A stretch of DNA of 64,000 bases. Origin: Candidatus Bathyarchaeota archaeon. GTDB taxonomy: Archaea; Thermoproteota; Bathyarchaeia; Bathyarchaeales; Bathycorpusculaceae. Every line of letters starts with the position of its first letter. The first letter of the stretch is position 1. The DNA lies in NCBI GenBank assembly GCA_026014735.1, contig JAOZHT010000002.1, positions 372,001 to 436,000 on the forward strand. Direction: 5' to 3'. Shown here one piece after another: positions 58,843 to 60,129 of this stretch. The notes beneath the pieces are model-generated. The model searched no databases. It was given only the letters and a program-made list of their open reading frames with translations, and had not been told where the DNA came from. A program made the position numbers and the translations under genes.

Positions 58843-58908
58843 GTGTGGTCATAATGGGTTTGTTTGTAGGTGTATAAGAAACTTGCCAATGCGGAAACTG
58901 CAGCGGCG

Positions 58909-58959
58909 CTTACGTCCCGTAATTAGCTTACGCCCCGTAAGTATTTACACCCTGTAAGT
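58909..58959. repeat. Three tandem palindromic repeats after the ATPase gene
   Basis: Three copies at 17-18-base period starting at 58909 (CTTACGTCCCGTAATT), 58927 (CTTACGCCCCGTAAGT) and 58944 (TTTACACCCTGTAAGT). The middle copy matches the two copies upstream of the ATPase gene; the others are diverged. They begin 8 bases beyond the stop codon of the ATPase. Confidence 0.85.
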
Positions 58960-58966
58960 AAAAGCA

Positions 58967-60031
58967 TTATCGAAGAACAAAGGACCGCAACATCGGATCC
59001 CCAACAAAATAACGCCCCTTGCTCTGCTGAAGCAGCATACCTGCCTGAAGATTCTTAATTATCCTATCCACAGTAACATCATTAACAATCGTATCCTTAG
59101 CAAACGATACCGACCTTTTAATTTCCGTCCAACTAGAAGGGACAGAAGCCTGTCTAAGCGCTGCAAGATACGCTGAACGGTCCCGGTTACGTAAGAAATG
59201 TTCAAGTTCATCCGCTACGATTTGCGAGGCTTCTTTCACAGTTTCTTCAAGGGCGCGTTCATGTGAAAGACGTTGCACACAAACTTTGTTTCCATATAAT
59301 GTTAGCCAACCGGGGATACCGTCCAAACGTTCAACCGCATCGTTTATCTTCTTGCTGGAAACCTCCATACTGCATTGTAAGAAACCCTTCCCAAGAAACT
59401 TTTTAGATTGCTCCTCCTTGAATGGATTCACTTCAATAATGGCAGGTGAGCGCCCATAGAGGGGTGAAGCGGAGTTGGGCTCTAAAAGTGTTTTCATTAG
59501 ACCAAACATAGATCCCGTAAAAACGAAGGTCAAGTTGCTGTGGGTGTTAAATAGATTTGCCAAAATTCTTAACAAACGCCCTGAAATGGCTGCGAGTTCC
59601 TGTACCTCATCGAGTTCAATTGCATAAGGCTCCTTTTGTCTTCCCAGTGCATCAAGTAAATCCCATGCGGTTCCCATCGGCTTTTTAGAGAGAGTAATAC
59701 TTATGCCGTTGGAACCGACTGTCGCGCCTTCGAGTGTTATGTTCTTGATTTTGTTTATGATACTTTTTTCTTCGTTGATTGCTCTGGCTAACGCTTTTAG
59801 AAAATCGTCTGTTCCCTTCGCACCCCAGAGGTTAACGTATATGACTTTAATGTTTCGACGTGTCAGGGTTGGAGCAGCCGCTTTTAGAAGGCTTGTTTTG
59901 CCTACCATTCGGGGTCCTTTGAGGGCAACCCAGCGTTTTGCTTCTATTAACCGAATGAGGTCTGATAGTTCTTGTTCGCGACCGAAGAGTTCTTTGGGTG
60001 ACTCTTTGGGTTTGAGATCAAACAATGACAT
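58967..60031 (-). CDS. Archaeal AAA ATPase with C-terminal winged helix
   Basis: Archaeal ATPase_2 family protein (354 aa). Walker A GPRMVGKTSLL (about 39-49), Walker B AIELDEVQEL (about 134-143), sensor FVFTGS, and a C-terminal winged helix (about 285-350: SSWTEIKRSVSF as the turn) typical of archaeal DEXX/STAND-like ATPases. Members are often scattered and mobile; their function is not settled. The ATG lies 3 bases from a perfect palindrome and the stop 8 bases from three more, so the gene is bracketed by tandem repeats. The palindromes may be its own operator. Confidence 0.8.
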   Translation of the reverse strand: MSLFDLKPKESPKELFGREQELSDLIRLIEAKRWVALKGPRMVGKTSLLKAAAPTLTRRNIKVIYVNLWGAKGTDDFLKALARAINEEKSIINKIKNITLEGATVGSNGISITLSKKPMGTAWDLLDALGRQKEPYAIELDEVQELAAISGRLLRILANLFNTHSNLTFVFTGSMFGLMKTLLEPNSASPLYGRSPAIIEVNPFKEEQSKKFLGKGFLQCSMEVSSKKINDAVERLDGIPGWLTLYGNKVCVQRLSHERALEETVKEASQIVADELEHFLRNRDRSAYLAALRQASVPSSWTEIKRSVSFAKDTIVNDVTVDRIIKNLQAGMLLQQSKGRYFVGDPMLRSFVLR

Positions 60032-60033
60032 TT

Positions 60034-60068
60034 ACTTACGCCCCGTAAGTTACTTACGCCCCGTAAGT
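60034..60068. repeat. Two perfect 17-bp palindromes at ATPase start
   Basis: Two copies of ACTTACG-CCC-CGTAAGT, at 60034-60050 and 60052-60068, period 18 bases. They lie immediately before the ATPase ATG on the minus strand, overlapping where its promoter or leader must be. Confidence 0.9.
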
Positions 60069-60129
60069 TAAAGAGCTTTTCGGAAAAATAACTCTGAACA
60101 AAACACAAAAAATGAAAAAGGAAAATGGC

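Follow-up and report, generated by a model that had tools for sequence, protein, structure and literature searches.

The ATPase gene at 58967–60031 (minus strand) of the window, by which we mean the whole stretch of 64,000 nucleotides analysed, carries tandem palindromes on both sides. We read it as a solitary, horizontally moving, STAND/Orc1-like ATPase gene of the SSO1545/PABY2304 type, which would carry its own operator, regulate itself and be moved passively; we put the probability of this reading at roughly two in three. The unit measures ~1.1-1.4 kb, and the loci that hold it are unrelated to one another, in many cases with a tRNA gene or tRNA end alongside. The ordinary half of this picture is a self-regulated gene. 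The unusual half is the gene plus operator as a solitary mobile unit, closed in by a second array in two clades.

Two perfect 17-bp palindromes precede the ATG, the first 2 bp away from it (60034–60050) and the second following with an 18-bp period (60052–60068). Both read ACTTACG CCC CGTAAGT. A putative BRE/TATA element (CCGAAAAGCTCTTTA, 60069–60083, minus strand), recognised from sequence, lies directly 5' of them. Past the stop codon, three related copies follow one another with 17/18-bp periods: 58943–58959 (3 mismatches), 58926–58942 (1 mismatch) and 58908–58924 (2 mismatches). These coordinates bear out the layout given in the initial annotation, with two perfect palindromes before the ATG and three related ones beginning 8 bp past the stop. 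When up to 3 mismatches are allowed, the window contains five matches to the motif, a count that is mildly unusual (5 of 100 shuffles had as many). All five fall at the ATPase gene, as two tandem sets. A repeat common throughout the genome would have spoken against a specific link with the gene, as the annotation had pointed out; the core CTTACGNNNCGTAAG is confined to the window ATPase locus, with all 3 of its occurrences in the 2,913,801-base genome found there and 0 occurrences of the reversed control pattern in the same bases. ACTTACGCCCCGTAAGT is the predicted target of the window ATPase. Folded as RNA, the upstream palindromes are stable (z -4.0), which is expected of any perfect palindrome pair. 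The downstream array is not (z -1.0), and a terminator or RNA role was set aside.

The protein is composed of 354 residues and matches the PF01637 profile with 74.4 bits (gathering cut-off 33.2). All its Pfam matches above cut-off are to P-loop ATPases. The Walker A motif GPRMVGKTS (residues 39-47; 59891–59917, minus strand), positioned by alignment, and the Walker B motif LDEVQ are intact, and G44, K45 and S47 are invariant in the family alignment. An AlphaFold model built on an alignment of 19 family members (mean pLDDT 89.4) places a C-terminal winged-helix domain at residues 285-342 (59006–59179, minus strand), as judged from its secondary structure. It is this domain that presumably reads the palindromes. 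Among solved structures, SSO1545 (2FNA, TM 0.83) and PABY2304 (2QEN, TM 0.77) are nearest, and Cdc6/Orc1 initiators come next, at a distance. SSO1545 and PABY2304 also match in full-length sequence profiles (E 1e-90 and 1e-85, respectively), and the window ATPase presumably belongs to the same family. We take these PF01637 ATPases to be the MNS clade of STAND. A literature search, which covered few subscription journals, found no description of operator arrays or mobility for this family. No nuclease, recombinase or transposase domain was found in the window protein by Pfam search and in the structure model, and the Pfam search found no HuH/Y1 transposase. A scan of genome contigs with the single ATPase protein as query gave no match. 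Since the matches in PADLOC and PHROGs are weak and run through the shared ATPase part only, we do not claim membership of a defence system.

The upstream array is a family trait. Tandem palindromes were scored within 50 bp before the start codon, with a cut-off of 18 or more. This score is reached by 44 of 53 relatives (23/30 at class level and 21/23 among further phylum-level members) and by 1 of 164 starts of control genes taken from the retrieved loci. The control set originally held 168 starts, 5 of them reaching 18, and 4 of these were ATPases themselves and were removed. Family members below the cut-off are mostly truncated, frameshifted or mis-started genes, or carriers of a single palindrome. 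In most of the 44 relatives, the array is wedged between a T/A-rich, TATA-like stretch on its 5' side and the start codon on its 3' side; the candidate binding sites are thus predicted, from sequence, to overlap the core promoter of the ATPase itself. The motif varies by clade (ACTTAAGGGGGTTAAGT, AGTAGGGGTACCCCTACT, AGTATCATGTGATACT, CTGGTGGTACCACCAG and others), and array sequence tracks protein identity (Mantel r=0.73, with 0 of 5000 permutations as high). For pairs below 45% protein identity the correlation drops to 0.29, and the signal is therefore mainly within clades. We infer that the upstream array has the anatomy of an autoregulatory operator, which the winged helix of the ATPase would read. 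Alternatively, another regulator that co-varies with the ATPase could read it. The initial annotation had regarded palindromes on both sides as unusual for simple autoregulation. This view does not hold for the upstream array, which is near-universal in the family and placed like an operator; the downstream array alone is clade-specific. The suggestion in the annotation that the ATPase might contact both flanks with a C-terminal winged helix is plausible, given that domain in the model and the co-variation of array and protein sequence.

Downstream copies beyond the local null are found in clade A (the window gene, both G066 copies, G049 and G020) and in clade B (G025, the paralogue in this genome, G019 and G040). 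They do not exceed it in clade C and most other members. The downstream array is absent or at background in about half of the family, so it is not needed for function or movement, and clade C units do move without it. When clade B loci are aligned, homology begins at the TATA box and stops where the downstream array ends.

Several observations argue for movement. The ATPase is sporadic, present in 16 of 91 genomes of the taxonomic family and 27 of 257 of the class, and several members of the protein family have inner stops or frameshifts. Five clade C copies of the same genus share only 0-522 bp of flanks out of up to 18 kb, whereas in these genome pairs the flanks of the control gene cdhE have 7.2-15.3 kb in common. 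A single empty site came to light: the joined flanks of the G013 copy match a single contiguous stretch in G026, G029, G025 and G037, and two convergent genes adjoin in the first three where G013 holds the unit. At sites compared for target duplication, the empty-site relatives are only ~65-79% identical. The clade B copy of this genome gave no contiguous empty site in relatives with its joined flanks because the two flanks lie apart there. G049 and G071, which belong to different genera, share 827 bp at 99.8% identity with an abrupt left edge; contamination is a possible cause. A unit outside the class (G350) has 88.8% DNA identity to that of G049, and its protein is 90-92% identical to those of G049 and G066b. 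The comparison genomes are nearly all draft assemblies, in which the G049, G071 and G001 loci lie at contig ends. Taken with the clade B homology of array, gene and array and with the tRNA-end junctions described below, these comparisons support well, for the family, the suggestion in the annotation of a compact mobile unit, with gene and operator together at non-orthologous sites. At the site in the window, neither a tRNA fragment nor a target duplication nor a clean empty site was seen, and mobility of this copy is argued from relatives. No real ATPase relative was found in 50,697 phage records, nor in IMG/VR with one conserved peptide pattern, and 72,556 plasmid records gave one partial match only, at 27% identity.

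A tRNA library built from G066 revealed tRNA fragments that Rfam missed. With it, tRNA genes or fragments were located at most 600 bp from nine ATPase members. Near the ATPases, 10 tRNA segments are found in 26.9 kb, as compared with 7 in 320.7 kb elsewhere (P = 9e-8, treating segments within one locus as independent). Three different tRNAs (Glu, Gly and Ser) supply the 3'-terminal pieces of 24-28 nt that follow the clade A unit in G350, G049 and G066b. In G350, the unit joins a 28-nt piece, from tRNA-Glu. The examined part of this contig (~88 of 94.5 kb) yielded no intact tRNA-Glu, so this tRNA end is apparently either carried along by the unit or a relic. At G066a, the 5' end of tRNA-Glu is repeated perfectly over 24 nt at a distance of ~3.7 kb from the intact gene, and an integrase fragment lies in the interval. 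In G019, the ATPase adjoins a ~5.5-kb tRNA-Val element (L061:3866-9403) with a PF16795-like integrase. PF16795 integrases and tRNA direct repeats thus occur in both G019 and G066. Archaeal integrases prefer tRNA 3' ends, and pTN3-like ones use 5' halves (PMC8371274). The G019 element also encodes a CAP12/Pycsar TIR-domain protein (PF10137), possibly a defence cargo. As for the edges of clade A units, a conserved purine-rich stretch ending in GGGAGAGATCACCAATGGTCGTTGTT precedes the tRNA end on the right (L060:1335-1375, L295:9296-9338), and the left edge carries the similar TTAGTCGCTGATA. The two are possibly imperfect terminal repeats.

Palindromes also occur without the gene. Solo palindromes are located 3' of cdhE as pairs in G018 and G030 and as single copies in G029 and G020. 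No ATPase homologue was found in G018, G029 and G030. The annotation had held that closely related genomes with the same locus and no repeats would weaken a link between palindromes and gene, and here the outcome is divided: closely related G026 has no array at cdhE, and the four genomes above have arrays at that place but no ATPase. In this genome, an intact tRNA-Val(TAC) is followed at 67 bp by a clade A-type tandem pair (L104:3081-3114; C2:748080-748113) with no ATPase nearby, and a second solo pair in G030 adjoins a tRNA-Val fragment. No ATPase remnant was found beside the solo arrays. Single palindromes found with a loose pattern in the genus are no commoner than the control rate; consequently, only tandem or positionally recurrent solo arrays were counted. 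Such arrays may have been left by deletion between flanking arrays, or may serve as targets.

The reading to which we give most weight combines autoregulation with passive transfer by tRNA-targeting elements. The ATPase would bind the palindromes via its C-terminal winged helix, one dimer per palindrome, and would thereby repress the core promoter of its own gene. In the window gene and the rest of clades A and B, the array after the stop would be bound too, closing a loop or insulating the gene. The unit would move by riding tRNA-targeting integrated elements and by recombination at flanking arrays, and recombination between these arrays could delete the gene, leaving a solo array.

A bolder reading sees in the unit a mobile element of a new kind, with a single gene. 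Its STAND/Orc1-like ATPase would recognise palindromic arrays at the ends, and the element would move, or be reduced to a solo array, without an encoded recombinase. We consider this unlikely. A related proposal makes the ATPase itself the mobility protein: the arrays would form the ends of a transposable unit with a single gene, and the ATPase would bind both ends and, helped by a nuclease that is borrowed or belongs to the host, excise and insert the unit. Solo arrays would be left behind or used as targets. In Tn7-like elements, the choice of target depends on ATPases with partners that bind DNA. The limits of homology in clade B, TATA and array at the start and downstream array at the end, fit such ends, as do solo arrays at sites where other genomes hold the gene. 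However, the protein has no nuclease or recombinase domain, clade C dispenses with the downstream array, clade A units reach past their arrays to the tRNA end, and no target duplication was seen, which makes this proposal improbable. The unit might also be a minimal replicon, that is, an Orc1/Cdc6-like initiator with palindromes as iterons, integrated as a relic of small tRNA-site plasmids. The fold similarity to Cdc6/Orc1, the tandem repetition of the palindromes, the position beside tRNA ends and the two genomes with integrases are consistent with this idea. It is nevertheless very improbable: the closest structures are 2FNA and 2QEN rather than initiators, the arrays lie exactly on the promoter in every clade, the phage and IMG/VR searches were empty and the plasmid search nearly so, and an AT-rich unwinding region was not identified. 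Simple autoregulation combined with ordinary gene loss and rearrangement, the second array being a roleless duplicated promoter fragment, accounts for the widespread upstream operator and for a downstream array that is degenerate in the window and absent in many relatives, but has little probability in view of same-genus positions without common flanking genes (unlike the control gene), of the close DNA match to a unit outside the class and of the fact that clades A and B both retain downstream arrays right at the stop codon.

Known systems resemble the unit in part. Archaeal Orc1/Cdc6 initiators combine, like the ATPase, AAA+ and winged-helix domains and are structural matches. Their genes sit next to repeated binding sites, the origin repeats. 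The ATPase belongs to another sequence family, and its palindromes lie on the promoter instead of forming origin boxes. Bacterial REP/RAYT systems (REPtrons) are similar in layout. According to two accounts (PMC8266576, PMC2817692), the gene has palindromes on either side, presumably recognised by its product, and REP palindromes also exist without a RAYT gene, like the solo arrays. The RAYT is, however, a tyrosine transposase and REPs are abundant, whereas the unit encodes an AAA/STAND ATPase with no nuclease and its core is found only at the locus. Elements integrated at tRNA genes by archaeal tyrosine recombinases (PMC8371274) share with the ATPase units their position against tRNA 3' ends, the 24-nt tRNA 5' end being the one exception. 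In contrast to them, the unit lacks its own integrase and the window copy is not at a tRNA. For a common archaeal ATPase family that is structurally solved and functionally obscure, the arrays provide a testable handle, each member having its own predicted DNA target. The findings suggest that these genes, of which a genome may hold several copies, are mobile units that regulate themselves and not ordinary housekeeping ATPases. The arrays also offer dozens of natural pairs of protein and predicted operator for studying the evolution of winged-helix specificity.

Other repeats were observed as well. In G025, a clade A-type array (ACTTACGTCCCGTAAGT plus a partial copy; contig 112, L074:15339-15373) precedes an apparent AbrB-type gene start; a clade B ATPase is 5.6 kb away. 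In G066, a regular repeat that translates as CENTYKGLK (L058:10410-10790) is probably a CRISPR array read as an ORF. Finally, a ~30-bp motif occurs many times in this genome, G025 and G026, including the right flank of the clade B ATPase (C3, ~210,567-210,604). The region contains CCCTATAAATAAGGGG and may be a repeated promoter element.
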